Assembly (NCBI GenBank): GCA_947588955.1
Contig: CANPYX010000010.1
Coordinates: 1 to 58,727 of the forward strand
Length of the DNA stretch: 58,727 bases
Origin: an uncultured Oscillospiraceae bacterium
GTDB taxonomy: Bacteria > Bacillota > Clostridia > Oscillospirales > Oscillospiraceae
Reading direction: 5' to 3'
Positions 1 through 54,685 of the stretch are shown here, piece after piece (the first letter of the stretch is position 1; the number at the start of each line of letters is the position of its first letter). A program made the position numbers and the translations under genes. The notes under the pieces are model-generated. The model saw nothing but the letters and a program-made list of their open reading frames with translations. It had not been told where the DNA came from and ran no database searches.

Positions 1-74
1 AAAAAAAGAAGAGAGTTACCAGGGGGTTCCTTGGTAACTCTCTTCCCTTTTTATGGGGCTTTTTTCACAGCCCC
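1..74. repeat. 74-bp inverted end repeat, left copy (family P5)
   Basis: These 74 bases equal the reverse complement of 58651-58724 with no mismatch. The unit contains two hairpins: one with arms gagagttacca and tggtaactctc (about 11-43) and one with GGGGC/GCCCC arms (55-74). The second also serves as hairpin 0 of the adjacent P2 copy. Probably a dispersed repeat at which assembly stopped. Confidence 0.85.
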
Positions 75-231
75 AAATGGGAACTTGCGAAAAGGAATTC
101 GGAAATGTCTGCGGACATTTCCGAATTCCTTTTCTGCTGTTTTGCTTCGCGCACGCCCCGAAGGGGCGCACACTCGCAAAACAAAAGGAGATTTTTCCGA
201 CGTACATGCCGCCGGAAAAATATTAAATTTG
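54..231 (+). repeat. P2 multi-hairpin element, copy A
   Basis: In + order: hairpin 0 (55-74), the gggaacttgcg link, hairpin 3 (perfect 21-bp stem 89-109/114-134, loop TGCG, which is CGCA on the other strand), hairpin 2 (about 136-183, basal arms GTTTTGC/GCAAAAC, inner arm GCCCC/GGGGC), then hairpin 1 (about 191-219, TTTTTCCG/CGGAAAAA, loop containing GTACATGC). Same order and orientation as copy B at 8706; copies C, D and E are inverted. The hairpin 1 end lies against the 3' end of the hydrolase gene, whose last codons run into the element. Confidence 0.85.
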
Positions 232-5081: not shown

Positions 5082-5087
5082 ACGCTC

Positions 5088-5357
5088 ATAAACCGATGAG
5101 TCAGAGTAGTAACCGGAAAAGACCTGCTCACAGAGAGCCGCCGGAGGTGGAATGGCGGCAGTAAGGGACCCGGCGAATGGACTGATGAGGGCGAAGCGAA
5201 ACCCGCGGGAGAGTAGCTTAGACGGATGCCTCCGTTACAGGGCGTTGCCGGTGGAAGCCGGCAGTGAGCGGGCGCGTCAGCGTCAATTTGGGTGGCACCG
5301 CAGAGACTTCACGTCTTTGTCCCGAGTAAATTCTCAGGGACAAAGGCGTTTTCTTTT
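5088..5357 (+). promoter_or_regulatory. T-box riboswitch, probable tryptophan specifier (UGG)
   Basis: The T-box core GGGTGGCACCGC is at 5290-5301. It precedes a terminator hairpin CTTTGTCCC/GGGACAAAG (5315-5345) and a T-rich run. The 5' part holds the stem I signatures: GAGTAGTAA near 5105, then AGAGAGCCGCC (5134-5144) and its partner GGCGGC. On the returning strand GGCGAA-TGG-ACTGATGAG places TGG (5178-5180) in the specifier position, which reads tryptophan. Known mechanism: uncharged tRNA-Trp stabilises the antiterminator and lets trpB2 be transcribed. The specifier assignment is by eye. Confidence 0.85.
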
Positions 5358-5387: not shown

Positions 5388-6767
5388 ATGAGCGAACAGA
5401 AAATCCCCTACAAAATCTACCTCAACGAGGATGAGATGCCGAAAAATTGGTACAACGTCCGGGCGGACATGAAGGTAAAGCCCGCGCCGCTGGTGAACCC
5501 CGGCACTCTCCAGCCCATGACCGCCGCCGACCTGGCGCCGGTCTTCTGCGACGAGCTCATCGCCCAAGAGCTGGACAACGACACCCGCGAGGTCCCCATC
5601 CCCGACGAGATCCGCGGCTTTTACAAAATGTACCGTCCCTCTCCGCTGGTGAGGGCGTACTGCCTGGAGGAGAAGCTGGGCACTCCCGCGCACATCTATT
5701 ACAAGTTCGAGGGCAACAACACCTCCGGCTCCCACAAGCTCAACTCCGCCATAGCCCAGGCGTATTACGCCAAGAAGCAGGGCTTGAAGGGCGTAACCAC
5801 CGAGACCGGCGCCGGACAGTGGGGCACCGCGCTCTCCATGGCCTGCGCCTACCTGGGGCTTGACTGCAAGGTCTACATGGTGAAGGTGAGCTACGAGCAG
5901 AAGCCCTTCCGCCGCGAGGTCATGCGCACCTACGGCGCCTCCGTCACCCCCAGCCCCTCCATGGAGACTGCTGTGGGCCGCAAGATACTTGCCGAGCACC
6001 CCAACACCACCGGTTCCCTGGGCTGCGCCATATCCGAGGCCGTGGAGGTCGCCACCTCCAATCCCGGCTACCGCTACGTCCTGGGCTCCGTTTTGAACCA
6101 GGTGCTCCTGCACCAGTCCGTCATCGGTCTTGAGACAAAGATCGCCCTGGACAAATACGGCGTCGTCCCCGACATAATCATCGGCTGCGCCGGCGGCGGC
6201 TCGAACCTGGGCGGACTTATAGCCCCCTTCATGGGCGAAAAGCTCAGGGGAGAGAAGGACTACCGCATCATCGCCGTTGAGCCCGCCAGCTGCCCCAGCT
6301 TCACCCGCGGCAAGTTTGCCTATGACTTCTGCGACACCGGCATGATCTGCCCGCTGGCAAAGATGTACACCCTGGGCGCCGGCTTCATCCCCTCCCCCAA
6401 CCACGCCGGAGGCCTCCGTTTCCACGGCATGAGCCCCGTGCTGAGCCAGCTCTACCACGACGGCTACATGGAGGCGACCTCCGTGGAGCAGACGGCTGTA
6501 TTTGAGGCCGCCGAGTTCTTCGCCCGCACCGAAGGCATACTCCCCGCCCCCGAATCCAGTCACGCCATCAAGGTCGCCATCGACGAGGCAAAGAAGTGCA
6601 AGGAGACGGGCGAGGCAAAAAACATCGTCTTCGGACTCACCGGCACCGGCTACTTCGACCTGGTTGCATACGAGCAGTACAATAACGGGACTATGACGGA
6701 TCATATTCCCACGGATGAGGAGCTCGCGGTGGGGCTTGCGGCACTGCCGCCTCAGCCCACGTTCTGA
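5388..6767 (+). CDS. trpB2: tryptophan synthase beta-like protein TrpB2
   Basis: A 459-residue PLP enzyme, longer than ordinary TrpB (about 400) and matching the TrpB2 group (TIGR01415). The PLP lysine is in NTSGSHKLNSA (near residue 113); the phosphate-binding glycine loop is CAGGGSNLGG; ETGAGQWG corresponds to the substrate loop. TrpB2 makes tryptophan from indole and serine, sometimes without TrpA. No trpA, trpC or other trp gene is present here. AAAGGAG lies 10 bases before ATG. Regulation by the tryptophan T-box supports a role in tryptophan supply, perhaps indole salvage (inference). Confidence 0.93.
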   Translation: MSEQKIPYKIYLNEDEMPKNWYNVRADMKVKPAPLVNPGTLQPMTAADLAPVFCDELIAQELDNDTREVPIPDEIRGFYKMYRPSPLVRAYCLEEKLGTPAHIYYKFEGNNTSGSHKLNSAIAQAYYAKKQGLKGVTTETGAGQWGTALSMACAYLGLDCKVYMVKVSYEQKPFRREVMRTYGASVTPSPSMETAVGRKILAEHPNTTGSLGCAISEAVEVATSNPGYRYVLGSVLNQVLLHQSVIGLETKIALDKYGVVPDIIIGCAGGGSNLGGLIAPFMGEKLRGEKDYRIIAVEPASCPSFTRGKFAYDFCDTGMICPLAKMYTLGAGFIPSPNHAGGLRFHGMSPVLSQLYHDGYMEATSVEQTAVFEAAEFFARTEGILPAPESSHAIKVAIDEAKKCKETGEAKNIVFGLTGTGYFDLVAYEQYNNGTMTDHIPTDEELAVGLAALPPQPTF

Positions 6768-6770
6768 TTT

Positions 6771-6803
6771 AAAAAACCCGCCCCCGCCGGGGGCGGGTTT
6801 TTT
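6771..6803. terminator. bidirectional intrinsic terminator after trpB2
   Basis: A15-bp-class hairpin with arms AAAAAACCCGCCCCC and GGGGCGGGTTTTTT around a gccg loop, with A and T tracts on both sides. It can stop trpB2 transcripts, and on the other strand would stop the short transcript from the outward promoter at 6832-6859. Confidence 0.9.
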
Positions 6804-6831
6804 AAGCAAGGTTGCTTCGGTTCATAAGTGC

Positions 6832-6859: not shown

Positions 6860-6905
6860 GTAAAAATAATTAAAAATGCTTCGTCAATTTCAACAAAAAT
6901 TTAGC

Positions 6906-7738
6906 GCTCCTGAGCCGCTGGGCTCTTTATAAGGTGTCCGCCCTTATGGGGCGGGGGATTTTCTTTCCTCTCTTTTTGAGTTCGTCAAAAAGAGAGGAAA
7001 GAAACAAAGGAGAGAAAAAACGAGTCAAGGGGGATTTCGATTTTCCCCCTTGACAATCCCCTTTTAAAAACGACCACACAGGGGGCTGCGGCCCCCTATG
7101 TGGAGAACCCCCAGTGGGGAGCAACGACGGTAGTGGTTGCGACGTTGGGACGGGAACGGAAGTTTTCCGCTTGCGGAAAACTTCCTGAGCCTCTGCCGCT
7201 GGCGCGGCTGTCCCCGTGGGGACCTTTTGAATGGTGGCGGCTGCGCCGCGATTGAACGCTTCGCTTACAGCTCCGCAGCGCCCAATGGCGAAGCCGAGGG
7301 CGCGGATGTAGAAGTAGGGCGTCAGATTACAGACGCGGCAGCTTACGGAGTGTAGGAGCTGCTCTGAAACATTTTGCCCGATTATAGAGCCAAAGCGCGG
7401 CGTTATTAAAGGGCAGGGCGTACTGACACCCGACCACGTTAAGCGGCTAAGCGAGTTCGGAGACTGTGCAATTCGGTTTTGGGAACCCGCGCGCCGTTTC
7501 TTCTGCCCGTGCGCAAAACATTCAGACCGCGGGAGCCGACCCGCCGACTATACGGTAGGGCGCAAAAGCTTCTGCCGACCCCAACGAGGGTCCAGGGAGG
7601 GATATCATTATCCCTCCCTGGTCGTTTTTCTCTCCTTTGTTACTTTCCTCTCTTTTGGCGAAACCAAAAGAGAGGAAAGTAAATCCCCCGCGCCCATTAA
7701 GGGCGCGGCCCTTTAACGAGCCCCGCGGCTCAGGAGCA
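6906..7738 (+). mobile_element. P1 element, copy 1 (833 bp, terminal inverted repeats, hairpin-rich)
   Basis: The stretch between trpB2 and spoIIQ is filled by an 833-bp non-coding unit. It begins GCTCCTGAGCC and ends GGCTCAGGAGC; the outer 75-100 bases at each end are imperfect inverted repeats. Each end has a hairpin built on CTTTCCTCTCTTTT and its complement. Inside are many more hairpins: AAGGGGGAT/TTCCCCCTT near 7041, CCACACAGGGGG/CCCCCTATGTGG (7072-7101), GGAAGTTTTCCGC/GCGGAAAACTTCC (7161-7188) and ACCAGGGAGGGAT/ATCCCTCCCTGGT (7589-7622). No frame exceeds about 85 codons. An inverted copy lies at 25872-26701. Either a non-autonomous mobile element or a large structured RNA. Confidence 0.8.
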
Positions 7739-8705: not shown

Positions 8706-8891
8706 TTATTCAAAAAGGGCTTTGCCCTTTTTGAATAAAGGGGAACGTGCGAAAAAGGTTTTGGAAATGTCTGCGGACATTTCCAAAACCTTTTTCTGCT
8801 GTCGCGCTGCGCGCGCCGCCGTAGGCGGCACACTTGCGCGACAAAAGGTGATTTTTTCGACGTACATGCCGTCGAAAAAATGTTTGATTTG
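8706..8891 (+). repeat. P2 multi-hairpin element, copy B
   Basis: Hairpin 0: 15-bp stem TTATTCAAAAAGGGC and complement (8706-8738). Hairpin 3: perfect 21-bp stem (8751-8771/8776-8796), loop TGCG. Hairpin 2: GTCGCGC/GCGCGAC with an inner GCCGCC/GGCGGC arm (about 8799-8842). Hairpin 1: TTTTTTCGACG/CGTCGAAAAAA with loop TACATGC (about 8852-8880), then the link TGTTTGATTT. It fills the gap between the convergent spoIIQ-like and CPBP genes and may terminate both. Confidence 0.85.
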
Positions 8892-24996: not shown

Positions 24997-25879
24997 CGCC
25001 GGCGAGCGGGTGGACGCCCTCATCGCCGCCAAAATGCCGGAGCTGAGCCGCTCCTTCGTCCAGAGGCTCCTGGAGGAGGGCCGCGTCACCTGCCGCGGCA
25101 GGGCGGTGAAAAAAAGCTTCCGCCCGGAGACGGGCGACGAGCTGACGCTGGAGATCCCCAAGCCCGAAAGACTTGAGGTCGCGGCGGAGGAGATACCCCT
25201 GGACATAGCCTACGAGGACGCGGACGTGATAGTGGTGAACAAGCCCAAGGGCATGGTGGTCCACCCCGCGCCGGGTCACGCGGACGGCACCCTGGTGAAC
25301 GCGCTCATGGCCCACTGCGGCAGCGAGCTCTCAGGTATAAACGGCGTCCTCCGCCCCGGAATCGTCCACCGCATCGACAAGGACACCTCCGGGCTCATCA
25401 TCGCCGCCAAAAACGACGCCGCCCACAGGCTCCTCGCCGCCCAGCTCAAGGACCACACCCTCTCCCGGACATACGAGGCGGTGGTCATAGGTAACCTTCG
25501 TGAGGACTCCGGCACCGTGGACGCCCCCATAGGCCGCCACCCCACGGACAGGAAAAAGCAGTGCGTCACCGACAAAAACTCCCGCCCCGCCGTTACCCAC
25601 TGGCGCGTGCTGGAACGCTTCAACGGCTTCACCCATGTGGAGTGCAGCCTGGAGACGGGCAGGACCCACCAGATCCGCGTCCACATGGCCCACATAGGTC
25701 ACCCAATTCTGGGGGACGCCGTATACGGACCCAAAAAGCCCTACCCCGGCACAGACGGTCAATGCCTCCACGCACGTACCCTTCGCTTTATTCACCCATC
25801 AACCGGTGAGCAGGTGACGGTCACATCTGAGCTTCCTGAGTATTTTATTGAACTTCTAAATAAACTCAGCCGCTCCTAA
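24971..25879 (+). CDS. rluD: 23S rRNA pseudouridine synthase RluD family
   Basis: A 302-residue RluA/RluD-type enzyme: N-terminal S4 RNA-binding domain (residues 8-60), then the catalytic domain with VNKPKGMVVHPAPGH and the signature HRIDKDTSGL (catalytic Asp near residue 137), and GRTHQIRVHM. GGAGGTG precedes ATG. The last codons and TAA (25877-25879) fall in the first bases of P1 copy 2, so the mobile element supplies the stop codon. lspA-rluD adjacency is widespread in Firmicutes. Confidence 0.94.
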   Translation: MTATLTVTDAGERVDALIAAKMPELSRSFVQRLLEEGRVTCRGRAVKKSFRPETGDELTLEIPKPERLEVAAEEIPLDIAYEDADVIVVNKPKGMVVHPAPGHADGTLVNALMAHCGSELSGINGVLRPGIVHRIDKDTSGLIIAAKNDAAHRLLAAQLKDHTLSRTYEAVVIGNLREDSGTVDAPIGRHPTDRKKQCVTDKNSRPAVTHWRVLERFNGFTHVECSLETGRTHQIRVHMAHIGHPILGDAVYGPKKPYPGTDGQCLHARTLRFIHPSTGEQVTVTSELPEYFIELLNKLSRS

Positions 25880-26701
25880 GCCGCTGGGCTTTTTATAAGG
25901 TATCCGCCCCTATGGGGCGGGGGAATCTGCTTTCTCCTCTTTTGGATTCGCCAAAAGAGGAGAAAGCAGCAAAGAGGAGAAAAGCGACCAGGGAGGGATA
26001 ATGATATCCCTCCCTGGACCCTGTTTGGGGTCGGCAGAAGCTTGTTGCGCCCTACCGTATAGTCGGCACGACGGCTCCCGCGGTCTGAATGTTTTACGCA
26101 CGGGCAGAAGAATCGACGCGCGGGTTCCCAAAACTGAATTGCACAGTCTCCGAAATCGCTTAGCCGCTTAACGTGGTCGGGTAATCAGAACGCCCTGCCT
26201 TCCAACATCGCCGCGCTTTGGCTCTATAATCGGGCAGAATGTTTCAGCACAGCTCCTACACATCGTGTGCTGCCGCGGCGGTAATCTGACGCCCTACTTC
26301 TATATCCGCGCCCTCGGCTACGCCGTAGGGCGCTGCGGAGCTGTAAGCGAAGCGTTTAATCGCGGCGCAGCCGCCACCATTTAAAAGGTCCCCACGGGGA
26401 CAGCCGCTTTAGCGGCAGAGGCTCAGGAAGTTTTCCGCAAGCGGAAAACTTCCGTTCCCGTCCCCCGTCGCAACCACTACCGTCGTTGCTCCCCACCGGG
26501 GGTTCTCCACATAGGGGGCCGCAGCCCCCTGTGTGGTCGTTTTTAAAAGGGGATTGTCAAGGGGGAAAATCGAAATCCCCCTTGACTCGCTTTTCTCCTC
26601 TTTGTTACTTTCTCCTCTTTTGGCGAAACCAAAAGAGGAGAAAGTAAATCCCCCGCCCCATAAGGGCGGACACCCTATAAAAAGCCCGGCGGCTTAGGAG
26701 C
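25872..26701 (-). mobile_element. P1 element, copy 2 (830 bp, inverted relative to copy 1)
   Basis: An inverted copy of the 6906-7738 unit, three bases shorter, alignable throughout by eye. Ends are GCTCCTAAGCC and GGCTTAGGAGC: the G-to-A change relative to copy 1 is matched by C-to-T at the other end, so the ends still pair. The end hairpins are CTTTCTCCTCTTTT-based instead of CTTTCCTCTCTTTT, changed on all arms. Internal hairpins are kept (CCACATAGGGGG/CCCCCTGTGTGG, GGAAGTTTTCCGC/GCGGAAAACTTCC, CAGGGAGGGAT/ATCCCTCCCTG). No coding frame of note. It starts inside the last codons of rluD. Confidence 0.8.
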
Positions 26702-29172: not shown

Positions 29173-29462
29173 TTCAAAAATCACCGCGGCGGCGTCGTCG
29201 CTCAAGCCGCTTTACCTCGCCCTCTCGTCCTCGCTGGCGTCACTTAACCTCGGGCTCCCGTTGGTCGCCCTCAGGCGTTGACGCCGCTCGTCCTCTCCCC
29301 AACGGGCTTTTGCCCGTCGGGGACCCCTTTGGTCGGTCTCAGGCGCAGGCTTGGCTCCTCCTCTCCCCAACGGGCTTTCGCCCGTCGGGGACCCCGGTCA
29401 CGTCAGCCGGCTTGGAAATACACAAAATATTCCCTGCGCCGGCGCAAGGTCGTGGGAGGCGC
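29173..29462 (-). mobile_element. 290-bp insertion containing a P3 module, with a 7-bp direct repeat
   Basis: The sequence CGGCGTT flanks it (29166-29172 and 29463-29469). On the minus strand it starts with a GC-rich piece and a GCCGGC/GCCGGC hairpin around GGGAATATT...GTATTTCC (about 29403-29440), which matches the core of the MITE at 28743. The P3 module follows (29193-29395): two tandem GGGGTCCCC-hairpin-GGGGAGAGG units with stems ACGGGC/GCCCGT, and the tail ending GCGACGACG. Removing it restores the reading frame. Confidence 0.75.
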
Positions 29463-30828: not shown

Positions 30829-30843
30829 GATATTCTTTCCTTT

Positions 30844-31031
30844 CCCCAATAAAATATTTTTTCCAAGGACATGCGCCTTGGAAAAAACACCTTTTGTCAA
30901 ATCGAGTGTGCGAGCGCAGCGAGTGCGCGAGATTTGACAGCAGGAACAAATAGAATGAATTTCGCAAAATTCATTCTATTTGTTCCGCACGCCTCCCCTT
31001 GGCATTTGAAGCCCGCAAAGCGGGCTTCAAA
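30844..31031 (-). repeat. P2 multi-hairpin element, copy E
   Basis: In + order: link AATAAAATAT; hairpin 1 TTTTTTCCAAGG/CCTTGGAAAAAA with loop ACATGCG (30857-30887); hairpin 2 GTCAAATC/GATTTGAC basal stem (30897-30938); hairpin 3, perfect 20-bp stem (30943-30962/30967-30986) with loop CGCA; link GCACGCCTCCCC; hairpin 0, TTTGAAGCCCGC/GCGGGCTTCAAA (31005-31031). The most diverged copy: nearly all stems differ from A-D, yet pairing and loops are kept. Between infB and rbfA; hairpin 0 lies five bases from the infB stop. Confidence 0.85.
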
Positions 31032-31036
31032 GCCAG

Positions 31037-33364
31037 TTAAATCTGCTCCATAACAAAACATTCGATTATGTCGCCGATCTTGATGTCGTTGAATTTGTCA
31101 ACCTGCATACCGCACTCGTAGCCGGAGGCGACCTCGCGGACGTCGTCCTTGAAGCGGCGCAGGGAGGCAAGCTCCCCGTCGAAGATGATCACGTTGTCCC
31201 GAATGACCCGGACCTTGCAGCCGCGCTGGATCTTGCCGTCCTGGACGTAGCAGCCGCAGACGGTGCCGACCTTGGATACCTTGTAGGTCTCCCGCACCTC
31301 GGCGTGGCCCAGCTGGACCTCCCGGAACTTGGGGGCGAGCATACCCTTCATTGCCGCCTCGATCTCGTTTATGCAGTCGTAGATTATGCTGTAAAGCCTG
31401 ATGTCCACGTGGCTCCTGGCGGCGTTTTCCCTGGCGGCGCTGTCGGGACGGACGTTGAAGCCAACGACTATAGCGCCGGAGGTGGCGGCGAGCATCACGT
31501 CGGACTCGGAGATGGCGCCAACTGCGGAGTGGATGACGCGCACCCGGACCTCCTCGTTGGTGAGCTTCTCTAAGCTCGCCTTTATCGCCTCGGCGGAGCC
31601 CTGGACGTCCGCCTTTACGATGATGGGCAGCTCCTTCAGCTCGCCCTCCCTGATCTGGGCGAAAAGGTCCTCCAGGGATACCTTTTTCGCGCCGGCGTCG
31701 GGGGCGTTCCTGCCGGCCCTGCGCTCCTCGGCAAGCTCCCTTGCCATTCTCTCGTCAGCCACGGCGTTGAAGATGTCGCCGGCGTCGGGGACCTCGCTCA
31801 TGCCCGCGATCTCCACGGGGACGGAGGGGCCCGCCTCGGTTACGCGCTCGCCCTTGTCGTTCATCATTGTGCGCACGCGCCCCACGGCGGTGCCGGCGAT
31901 GATGATGTCGCCCTGGTGAAGGGTGCCGTTCTGGACGAGGACGGTCATAATGGGGCCTCTCCCTTTGTCAAGCCGCGCCTCGATGACCACGCCCTTTGCC
32001 GCCCTGTTGGGGTTGGCGCGGAGCTCCTGGACCTCGGAGAGAACCACCAGGTTCTCCAAAAGCTCCTGTATGCCCTCGCCGGTTTTGGCGGATATGGGGC
32101 ATACTATGGTGTCGCCGCCCCACTCCTCAGGGACTATGTCGTACTCGGTGAGCTGCTGCTTTATCCGTTCGGGGTTGGCGCCGTGGACGTCCATTTTGTT
32201 TATCGCCACGACTATAGGTATTTTTGCCGCTTTCGCGTGATTTATTGATTCCACAGTCTGGGGCATTATTCCGTCGTCGGCCGCCACCACAAGAATGGCG
32301 ATGTCCGTCGCCATTGCGCCGCGGGCGCGCATGGAGGTGAAGGCCTCGTGTCCCGGGGTGTCCAGGAAGGTTACGGGGGAGCCGTTCACCATGACCCGGT
32401 AGGCGCCGATGTGCTGGGTTATGCCGCCCGCCTCGCCGGACGCCACGTTGGTGGAGCGTATCTTGTCAAGAAGCGAGGTCTTGCCGTGGTCCACGTGGCC
32501 CATGACCACAACGACGGGGGCGCGGGGGACAAGCTCCTCCTCGGTGTCCTGCCGGTCGTCGATGAGGCGCTCCTCGATGGTGACGACGACCTCTTTTTCC
32601 ACCTTACAGCCCAGCTCCATCGCCACGAGCGCGGCGGTGTCGTAATCTATCGTGTCGGAGACGGACGCCATTACGCCCATCCTTATGAGGGACTTGACCA
32701 CCTCGGCGCCGGTCTTCTTCATTCGGGAGGCCAGCTCCCCGACGCTTATTTCGTCGGGTATCTGGACCCTGACGGGCGCCTTTTTCGCCACCTCGAACTG
32801 GAGGCGGCGGAGACGGTCGCGCTCCTCCTGGCGGCGCTTGGCGGATTTGTCCGCGGCGGGGCTCTGGCGCTGCTGTCCGCCCTTCTTCTTTATCTGCTCC
32901 TTGCCGCGCCTCATGCTGTTGGCGCGCTCGCCCGCCATGTTGTCGAACCGCTCGTCGTATTTTTCGATGTTCAGCGTGACGCCGGAGGTGTCAATGACCC
33001 GCTTCTCCTTCTCGGGGCGGGGCTTGAAGGGCTTGTCGGCCTGCTTCGCGGCGGGCTTTTGGGCCTGCGGCTGGCGGGGCTGGTCCTGCGGCTTCTCCTC
33101 CCCGGCGGGCGCGGCTGCCGCCTCCTGCGTGGCGGCGGGGGCGGGCTCGGCCTTGGGAGTGTCGGCAAATACCTCCGCGATGGACTCCATCTGGTGGTGC
33201 TGTGTCAGATACTCAAAGATACAGTCAAGCTCCCGCTCCTCAAGCACCTGCATAGGACTTTTGGGCGTGGAGGAGTACTTCGTCAGGATCTCGCTTATCG
33301 CCTGTGTCTTGACGCCGAAATCCTTCGCTACCTCGCGCACCCTGTATTTTACCATTACTGCCAT
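31037..33364 (-). CDS. infB: translation initiation factor IF-2
   Basis: A 775-residue GTPase that brings initiator tRNA to the 30S subunit. The N-terminal part has an IF2 N domain ([19 protein letters not shown]), a Glu/Ala/Lys/Gln-rich linker (about 70-190) and a second N domain ([21 protein letters not shown]). The G domain has [12 protein letters not shown] (G1), DTPGHEAF (G3) and NKMD (G4). Domains II-IV follow with the [15 protein letters not shown] block. Fully typical. Part of the rimP-nusA operon. Confidence 0.97.
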
Positions 33365-34130: not shown

Positions 34131-34236
34131 GGGGTCCCCGCACGATTGAAAATCGTGTGGGGAGAGGAGGAGCAAACACGGCGCCTGAGCCCGACCGTCA
34201 GGGAGGGCGAGGTTAAGCGTGTTCCGCGACGACGAA
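34131..34236 (-). repeat. P3 module between nusA and rnpM, running into the nusA stop
   Basis: In + orientation: GGGGTCCCC (34131-34139), hairpin CACGATT/AATCGTG, GGGGAGAGGAGGAGC, the spacer, GCGCCTGAGCCCGACC, then the tail GGGCGAGGTTAAGCG...GCGACGACGA. The same tail is at 45426-45453 and, on the minus strand, near 29193-29215. The tail overlaps nusA codons: its GGTTAAGC holds the nusA stop on the minus strand. Confidence 0.8.
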
Positions 34237-45175: not shown

Positions 45176-45558
45176 CCAAAATTAAACATTTTTCCGGCGG
45201 CATGTACGTCGGAAAAATCACCTTATGTCGCGCAAGTGTGTGACATATGGGGTCCCCACGCAATCGTGATTGCGTGGGGAGAGGAGGAGCGAAGTCCGCG
45301 CCTGAGCCCTGCCATCGGGGGACCCCGACAGGCAAAAGCCTGTTGGGGAGAGGACGAGCCGAGCCTGCGCCTGAGGGCGACCATAGGGAGCCCGAAGTAA
45401 AGCGGCTCGATCGAGGACGAGGGGGCGAGGTTAAGCGACTTCAGCGACGACGAGTGCGCGCAGCGCGACAGCAGAAAAAATTTCTGGAAATGTCCGCAGA
45501 CATTTCCAGAAATTTTTTCGCACGTTCCCCCTCAAAAAAGGGCATCGCCCTTTTTTGA
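45176..45558 (-). repeat. P2 multi-hairpin element, copy D, with a P3 module inserted
   Basis: Link AAATTAAACAT, hairpin 1 TTTTTCCG/CGGAAAAA with the GGCATGTACG loop (45189-45219), then hairpin 2 whose basal arms TGTCGCGC (45227-45234) and GCGCGACA (45463-45470) are now about 230 bases apart because a P3 module occupies the tip. Hairpin 3: perfect 21-bp stem (45474-45494/45499-45519), loop CGCA. Hairpin 0: TCAAAAAAGGGC/GCCCTTTTTTGA (45532-45558), which contains the stop codon of the acetyltransferase gene. It fills the gap between two convergent genes. Confidence 0.85.
45249..45453 (+). repeat. P3 module nested in P2 copy D
   Basis: Two tandem units. The first is GGGGTCCCC, stem ACGCAAT/ATTGCGT, GGGGAGAGGAGGAGC. 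The second is GGGGGACCCC, stem ACAGGC/GCCTGT, GGGGAGAGGACGAGC. Each is followed by GCGCCTGAGsssssACC-type text, then the tail GGGCGAGGTTAAGCG...GCGACGACGA (45424-45453). Same architecture as the module in the broken gene at 29193-29395. Confidence 0.8.
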
Positions 45559-54520: not shown

Positions 54521-54685
54521 CAAATCAAACATTTTTTCGGCGGCATGTACGTCGAAAAAATCACCTCTTGTTTTGCAAGCGTGCGCCCCTACGGGGCGTG
54601 CGCGCAGCAAAACAGCAGGAAAAAGTCCGTGAATTCCGCAGAATTCACGGACTTTTTCCGCACGTTCCCCCCGCCCTTTTCGGGC
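54521..54685 (-). repeat. P2 multi-hairpin element, copy C
   Basis: Link CAAATCAAACAT; hairpin 1 TTTTTTCG/CGAAAAAA around GGCATGTACG (54533-54561); hairpin 2 with basal arms GTTTTGC/GCAAAAC and inner GCCCC/GGGGC (about 54569-54613); hairpin 3, perfect 19-bp stem (54618-54636/54641-54659), loop CGCA; link GCACGTTCCCC; hairpin 0 GCCC/GGGC (54673-54685). Another hairpin ATTCCTC/GAGGAAT follows at 54691-54715. Starts four bases after the M15 peptidase gene. Confidence 0.85.

Follow-up and report, generated by a model that had tools for sequence, protein, structure and literature searches.

A high-copy hairpin repeat at gene 3′ ends in uncultured Oscillospiraceae, probably related to IS1182-family transposons, whose stems change by block replacement

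REP and REPIN elements are repetitive sequences mobilised by Y1 (RAYT) transposases, and the double-hairpin elements of Allomyces are further comparable repetitive hairpin elements. Hairpins are also targets of transposons. IS1272, a member of the IS1182 family, is described as targeting inverted repeats and replacing the stem-loop, and the authors' model includes an alternative path that would duplicate the stem-loop instead (PMC5678879). IS1272 and TnSha1 are reported to insert into hairpins, several of which were confirmed as transcription terminators (PMC4923244). MITEPye1 of Paracoccus yeei is described as a non-autonomous, preferentially intergenic element with IS1182-type terminal repeats and predicted long stem-loops (PMC11578231). 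Template switching is reported to yield multi-base compensatory changes in RNA genes (PMC8794818), and sponge mitochondria are described as containing dispersed intergenic hairpin elements that are structurally and compositionally divergent (PMC2800124).

Here we describe P2, a short repeat of ∼150–250 bp present in ∼100 copies in the genome of a gut bacterium, an uncultured member of the Oscillospiraceae. The window analysed is a stretch of 58,727 nt (contig CANPYX010000010.1). The carriers among the matches listed are metagenome-assembled genomes (MAGs) of uncultured Oscillospiraceae with isolate names beginning Lapin, a prefix that points to the rabbit gut as their habitat. A preliminary description of the window had placed five P2 copies in it; each was present on reading the sequence, and in all five the third hairpin (H3) is, as described, a perfect stem of 19–21 bp with the loop CGCA on the element strand. 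On that strand the five copies are laid out as a short A/T-rich lead, hairpin 1 (H1), the link CACCTTT, hairpin 2 (H2), GCAG, H3, a second link and hairpin 0 (H0). The H3–H0 link is CGCACGTTCCCC, except in copy C, which has CGCACGCCTCCCC instead. The features of the window are as follows.

54–231, minus strand: P2 copy A, with H1, an H2 of base GTTTTGC, an H3 with a 20-bp stem and loop CGCA, and an H0 near the contig end.
6769–6805, no strand assigned: plain terminator-like hairpin with a 17-bp stem, where the sister species G019 has a P2 copy instead (L136:8350–8502).
8706–8891, minus strand: P2 copy B, flanked by the ends of two convergent ORFs, with H2 base GTCGCGC and an H3 of class GGAAATGTC.
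30841–31035, plus strand: P2 copy C, a divergent copy (117.9 bits) between two minus-strand ORFs.
30857–30887, plus strand: hairpin 1 of copy C, with stem TTTTTTCCAAGG/CCTTGGAAAAAA and loop ACATGCG, read from the sequence.
30895–30939, plus strand: hairpin 2 of copy C, with base TGTCAAATC/GATTTGACA and a conserved internal GAGTGTG/GTGCGCG part.
30943–30986, plus strand: hairpin 3 of copy C, a perfect 20-bp stem with the loop CGCA at 30963–30966.
31001–31034, plus strand: hairpin 0 of copy C, terminator-like; the next ORF, on the minus strand, ends at 31037, just beyond the hairpin.
45176–45558, plus strand: P2 copy D, in which a P1 insert splits H2 while the base arms GTCGCGC/GCGCGAC still match.
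45245–45460, plus strand, approximate extent: the GC-rich P1 insert or inserts in copy D.
54521–54685, plus strand: P2 copy E, 3 nt past an ORF end and opposite a convergent tRNA-Arg gene, with an H3 of class GTGAATTC.

Two parts of this layout differ from the preliminary description. H0, which was said to behave like the other hairpins, is better described as terminator-like, placed between the core of the element and the gene that follows; in long-form copies it takes in the 3′ terminal repeat. In copy D, H2 also contains the extra GC-rich repeat P1. The core covariance model spans 157 positions, too short for a transposase gene.

P1 is itself a GC-rich structured repeat, seen at 45245–45460, 29193–29395 and 34132–34203 of the window and found inside H2 of P2; it gave 73 BLAST pieces across the loci searched, and by eye its stems GAAGTC/GACTTC and GATGCC/GGCATC seem to co-vary too. 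Other repeats lie in the same stretch. The two contig ends (1–74 and 58651–58724) carry a hairpin-rich repeat in two perfectly matching, inverted copies, where the assembly breaks, and an 840-bp repeat with GCTCCTGAGCCGC-type ends and many hairpins occurs in inverted orientation at 6897–7737 and 25872–26701 (90% identical), with partial copies elsewhere in the same genome and in G019. At L014 (∼5500–5721) an apparent open-frame end runs straight into the H3 stem of a P2 copy whose first hairpins are missing.

The link CGCACGTTCCCC has 34 exact occurrences in the genome that holds the window (G000; 2,563,483 bases in 58 contigs), compared with none for its reversed control. The preliminary description had proposed collecting copies with a covariance model, and a model seeded on 19 copies gave 148 matches in G000 at E≤0.001, 87 of them at 100 bits or more; the figure of 148 includes fragments and reverse-strand matches and is a lower bound, with 150 of 1317 candidates scored. 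Among 60 genomes (this one and its relatives, at most 50 candidates scored per genome), 33 had a P2 match. Within the genus, 22 of 34 genomes have full-strength P2 (best E below 1e-25), 8 have weaker matches only and 4 have none. With gene 3′ ends set by a simple open-frame criterion, such an end lies within 150 nt of 98 of 106 P2 copies, compared with 33.9% of 2000 random positions, and 52 of the 106 copies stand between two convergent gene ends, compared with 4.0% of 2000 random positions. In the window, copies B and D have convergent ORF ends on either side, and copy E lies between the end of an ORF and a tRNA gene convergent with it.

P2 has the appearance of an RNA that evolves under selection on its fold. 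Analysis of 19 aligned copies with RNAalifold gave 51 pairs, 25 of which change on both sides in one or more of the sequences, and standard pairing holds in 99.0% of 960 cells, compared with 84.5% in shuffled and 35–57% in slid controls. The covariation score (0.435, compared with 0.160 for shuffled alignments) was reached by 0 of 500 shuffles; covariation thus exceeds the shuffled level, by controls that are not phylogeny-aware. The number of further pair types (52) was not beyond shuffles, 76 of 500 reaching that count. The element strand folded more stably than its complement in 19 of 19 copies, and G042, a genome of another family, contains sequences that resemble H1 and part of H2. Such observations are what would be expected if P2 were a structured RNA whose stems co-vary by compensatory point mutation, an explanation that we nevertheless consider distinctly unlikely. 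A covariance-model scan of the window found no Rfam match at the gathering threshold over its P2 copies, and at E≤1 in four loci only microRNA and naRNA4 models, below gathering, touched P2 hairpins. (A T-box leader, Rfam RF00230, 93.3 bits, lies at 5087–5327 of the window.) Moreover, covariation is also produced by the exchange of blocks.

Mismatches in the stems allow a further comparison. If element-strand RNA were under selection, then G-U mismatches should exceed A-C mismatches. This was so in H2, both in its apical part (13 G-U, 0 A-C; p = 0.0002) and at its base (12 G-U, 3 A-C; p = 0.035), where the counts are small and the variants not independent. In contrast, G-U was not preferred in H3 (14 G-U, 25 A-C) or favoured in H0 (12 G-U, 17 A-C). 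The RNA-strand signature is therefore present in H2 and absent in H3 and H0. Selection on an RNA fold, one of two readings offered in the preliminary description, is unneeded for H3 and H0 and possible for H2, where the G-U bias suggests some strand-specific fold selection that a reading of P2 as a miniature inverted-repeat transposable element (MITE) with block exchange does not need.

A set of 124 copies was drawn from G000 and G019, each with a CGCA[CA]G link close to its end and a length of 136 bases or more, duplicates having been removed; 120 of them were parsed for H3 and 4 were not. These 120 copies have 99 distinct H3 stems, in which 1959 of 2003 stem positions are Watson-Crick pairs, as read by a parser whose limits (a C[GA]CA loop and no fewer than 14 Watson-Crick pairs) favour well-paired stems. 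The loop is CGCA in 119 of the 120 and CACA in one, a tally that for the same reason is not free of bias. Counting from the loop, pair five is A-T in each of the 99 distinct stems. The preliminary description held that stems vary freely. Stems do differ among copies, but the inner part of H3 falls into about five recurring classes, which are also those of P2 copies in other species of the genus. The inner class of copy E, which was presented as sharing almost no stem sequence with the others, is GTGAATTC and has 10 exact members among the 120 copies.

How the stems change could be read directly at orthologous loci. G019 is a sister species in which long stretches are 92–97% identical to G000. 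Copies were paired by unique flanks in the fetched parts of G019, giving 22 orthologous pairs out of 64 G000 copies, the remainder being without both flanks in the fetched part; the pair L106/L122 falls outside the 22. The flanks of orthologous copies are 87–99% identical. In H3, two-sided changes numbered 0 in 9 pairs, exactly 1 in none and 2–16 in 13, and one-sided changes totalled 7 over all 22 pairs. H3 arm identity was ≤75% in 8 pairs and >75% in 9 others that still showed some difference; in 5 pairs H3 was identical throughout. At L092 and L121, for example, H1, H2 and H3 are all identical, while the G019 orthologue of copy E has a different H3. Because no pair shows exactly one two-sided change and 13 show between 2 and 16, we conclude that stems are replaced as blocks. 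The replacement blocks apparently come from other copies: for 17 of the 26 alleles in the block-changed pairs, a paralogue within one pair of the allele was present in the same genome (samples of 61 and 59 copies), compared with a mean H3 distance of 9.0 pairs between random copies across the two genomes. Syntenic long hairpins not associated with P2 numbered only 11 of 97, some perhaps P2-derived, and were too few for comparison.

This pattern fits block replacement from other copies and is contrary both to sequential compensation, as a structured RNA would show it, and to copying of one arm onto the other. The latter, template switching within a hairpin during replication, would keep palindromes perfect and leave mismatches without strand preference, as in H3 and H0. 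In addition, for 36 of the 120 copies a single two-sided pair is the sole difference from the nearest sampled within-genome paralogue; given how common such differences are, slower processes may also act. However, arm copying cannot alter the class of a stem, and the orthologous changes in H3 were often a switch to another recurring class. Among the 22 pairs there was no single isolated two-sided change of the kind that would point to one arm being rewritten from the other, and we regard this process as very unlikely to be the source of the variation. Of the two readings offered at the outset, a copying process is supported, but it imports entire hairpins, for which other copies are the simplest source.

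A different route to the same pattern would be independent re-insertion, in which terminator hairpins are hot spots: the old P2 goes missing or is displaced, and another copy enters at that place. A single terminator has been reported to receive an IS1272-flanked element repeatedly and independently (PMC4923244), and in 10 of the 22 pairs the left 30 nt had also changed (below 0.8 identity). On the other hand, 5 of the 13 block-changed pairs have a left 30 nt that is ∼90% or more identical, and 4 of the 13 have a 50-nt tail at least 95% identical. At L024 and L129 the left flank and a rare H1 type are retained while the apical part of H2, H3 and H0 all differ. We consider re-insertion unlikely.

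The hairpins behave as modules. The left and right base arms of H2 agree in class in 81 of the 82 copies without P1 that could be classified (16 of 98 were left out as unclassified). The base of H2 is partly associated with its apical part (mutual information 0.889 of 1.356 bits), whereas no association was found between H2 base and H3 class (0.163, compared with a shuffled mean of 0.137 and maximum of 0.286), indicating that H2 and H3 reassort freely between copies. At 4 of the 22 loci the orthologues also differ in whether P1 is present. At the H2 base, 7–8 of 8 pairs are kept in 94 of 98 copies without P1 but in only 7 of 17 that bear it, and in some of the latter an end of P1 stands where the right H2 arm was. 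The broken H2 pairing in 10 of the 17 P1-bearing copies is a further point against maintenance of P2 as a structured RNA.

Could the swaps be short-read assembly chimeras? The named carriers are MAGs, and several G000 contigs end near repeats. However, an H3-only swap with both unique flanks intact needs two mis-joins through another copy's stem, and mis-joins within H2 should leave its arms mismatched, which is at odds with the agreement of base arms given above. The parsed copies also have 99 distinct H3 stems among 120. We hold chimeras to be a most improbable explanation.

Several observations link P2 to transposons of the IS1182 family. Direct repeats of at least 16 nt flank 10 of 63 P2 copies, compared with 0.15% of 2000 mismatched pairings; they were found at 4 of 47 copies in the own genome and 6 of 16 in other genomes. 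By eye these repeats are hairpins or parts of hairpins, and they were not seen in the majority form. A search with the left end of the long form found the ends of a multi-copy element in G000, where only the ends of the insertion sequence (IS) are assembled, many of them near contig ends, and no strong IS1182 match is present. In G019, two inverted ends of the long-form type stand 1.6 kb apart, and between them starts a 537-aa open frame that runs slightly past the right end. This frame matches the IS1182 model NF033551 (E = 1.2e-131; 440 bits, cut-off 270) and contains Pfam DDE_Tnp_1_6 and DUF772. The ends of this intact IS, CAGTCTGTCGACAAACCCG and TTTGTCTACAGTCTG, match the P2 long form, and a 23-nt palindrome (arms of 11 bp) is duplicated on either side of the IS.

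Ten IS loci were examined by script. Palindromic duplications of 25–33 nt were found at four, five gave no end pair and one gave only a non-matching pair. L304, among the five without scripted ends, is the same element as L299, whose ends were read by eye; altogether, a palindromic duplication accompanies 5 IS. The four loci with scripted duplications have ends of two types, CAGACTGTAGACAAAC and CAGTTTGTCAAAAAA or CAGTCTGTCAAAAAA, each of which occurs in P2 long forms. Among the 124 P2 copies, 16 have both ends matching the IS repeats at 11 or more of 15 positions (shuffled, 0.44%), the outer repeats being unrecognisable in most; the match in terminal repeats and palindromic duplication was thus observed directly in a subset of copies. 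The contrast drawn in the preliminary description with ordinary MITEs is misleading, since this subset shares with resident IS1182-family elements both the terminal repeats and the duplicated palindromic target. At L069, one P2 lies within the H0 hairpin of a second copy, and 17 bp are duplicated. Separately, L300:895–949 (G000:C1) holds a solo hairpin that resembles two facing IS1182-type right ends with no gene between them.

Sites at which P2 is absent were less clear. At 6769–6805, the ends of the P2 copy in G019 are incomplete, with the outer terminal repeat missing and microhomology-like junctions. L094:2272–2430 was compared with L135 as a candidate empty site and rejected: G019 keeps AGACTGCC and H0 there, which makes a deletion product more likely. 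None of three further sites of P2 absence was a clean insertion.

We also compared the distribution of transposases across the genus, where the genomes are MAGs and absences may reflect incompleteness. IS1182 matches at E<1e-30, a threshold chosen afterwards, were present in 14 of 22 P2-positive and 1 of 12 P2-negative genomes (p = 0.003), and matches over the curated cut-off in 8 of 22 and 0 of 12 (p = 0.03); between P2-rich genomes (at least 38 matches) and the rest, the figures were 11 of 19 and 4 of 15 (p = 0.09). Eight of the 22 P2-positive genomes, including G024 (rated 100% complete) and G000, had no strong IS1182 match, and G042 has a related multi-hairpin repeat (68 matches) yet no IS1182 match. 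The loci fetched from G042 (L335–L359) show that this sister repeat shares its type of H1 loop with P2 and has perfect stems of great length and a CTCGCAGAGTT lead. The co-occurrence of IS1182 with P2 lacks specificity and may reflect genome size, P2-negative genomes being mostly smaller. Matches to the Y1 transposase (PF01797) were found in 16 of 22 P2-positive and 2 of 12 P2-negative genomes (p = 0.003). Because the association of Y1 with P2 is as strong as that of IS1182, co-occurrence cannot decide between them, and we favour IS1182 because the ends and the palindromic duplication match. Mobilisation by a RAYT/IS200 system was rejected on the grounds that no PF01797 match was found in G000, G005, G010, G014 or G016, all of which are P2-rich. 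Mobilisation by a reverse transcriptase (retron, diversity-generating retroelement or group II intron) was likewise rejected, as no PF00078 match was found in G019, G010, G016, G024 or G033, which are likewise rich in P2; some PF00078 match was present in 11 of 22 P2-positive and 4 of 12 P2-negative genomes.

High copy number, block replacement at orthologous loci, reassortment of H2 and H3 and location at gene 3′ ends were observed directly. The explanation that we think somewhat more probable than its negation is that P2 is an IS1182-related MITE, high in copy number and located at terminator hairpins, and that the hairpins within it are exchanged module by module. By this explanation, P2 would be a non-autonomous, MITE-like relative of the IS1182-family transposons of the same bacteria, presumably transposed in trans by their transposase, and would occupy what are, from their form and position, putative transcription-terminator hairpins at gene 3′ ends. 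Insertion of the long form would duplicate the target hairpin, as resident IS1182 elements appear to do. The hairpin at a locus would then be swapped as a block for a version carried by other copies, probably by ectopic recombination or gene conversion between copies, with the conserved links and loops a likely source of homology for the exchange. When a whole hairpin is replaced, both arms change together and pairing survives. We consider it unlikely that IS1182-type machinery or a host process acting at cruciforms instead replaces one hairpin after another with no need of terminal repeats, so that any terminator-like stem-loop, those within P2 included, could be swapped for a different one; hairpin swapping would then act throughout the genome and generate covariation without selection on RNA.

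Covariation is commonly taken as strong evidence of functional RNA structure. In P2 it is strong across many dispersed copies, but the orthologues indicate that stems are exchanged in blocks, so that relying on covariation by itself would be misleading here: matched base changes that resemble RNA evolution can arise by copying. P2 is also a very abundant, probably IS1182-related element at many gene 3′ ends of one bacterial genus, and its modular hairpins make the mode of exchange testable.

The element class to which we assign P2 is already known, while its modular turnover and scale were not found described in the literature searched. That search gave no description of P2 itself, which is not proof that none exists. 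REP and REPIN elements are, like P2, intergenic palindromic repeats in high copy, but differ in that a Y1 match, although found in most P2-positive genomes, is absent from the five P2-rich genomes named above. The template switch reported for RNA genes copies within a hairpin region (PMC8794818), whereas in P2 whole hairpins of another class appear. The sponge elements are, unlike P2, mitochondrial, and the sections of that paper drawn on here describe neither a transposase family nor a test at orthologous loci (PMC2800124). For IS1272 the targeted stem-loop is removed or, in one model of the authors, may be duplicated, and a duplicated palindrome stands at the ends of the resident IS of this genus and of the P2 long form; P2 differs from IS1272 and TnSha1 in its size of ∼150–250 bp, its high copy number and the lack of full terminal repeats in most copies. 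With MITEPye1, an IS1182-type MITE predicted to fold into stem-loops had already been published, and the preliminary contrast between P2 and ordinary MITEs is misleading on that count too (PMC11578231). MITEPye1 is reported in 1–3 copies in chromosomes, compared with dozens of P2 per genome, and where the sections of the MITEPye1 paper used here describe no stem variation, P2 has three to four internal hairpins that turn over hairpin by hairpin (PMC11578231).
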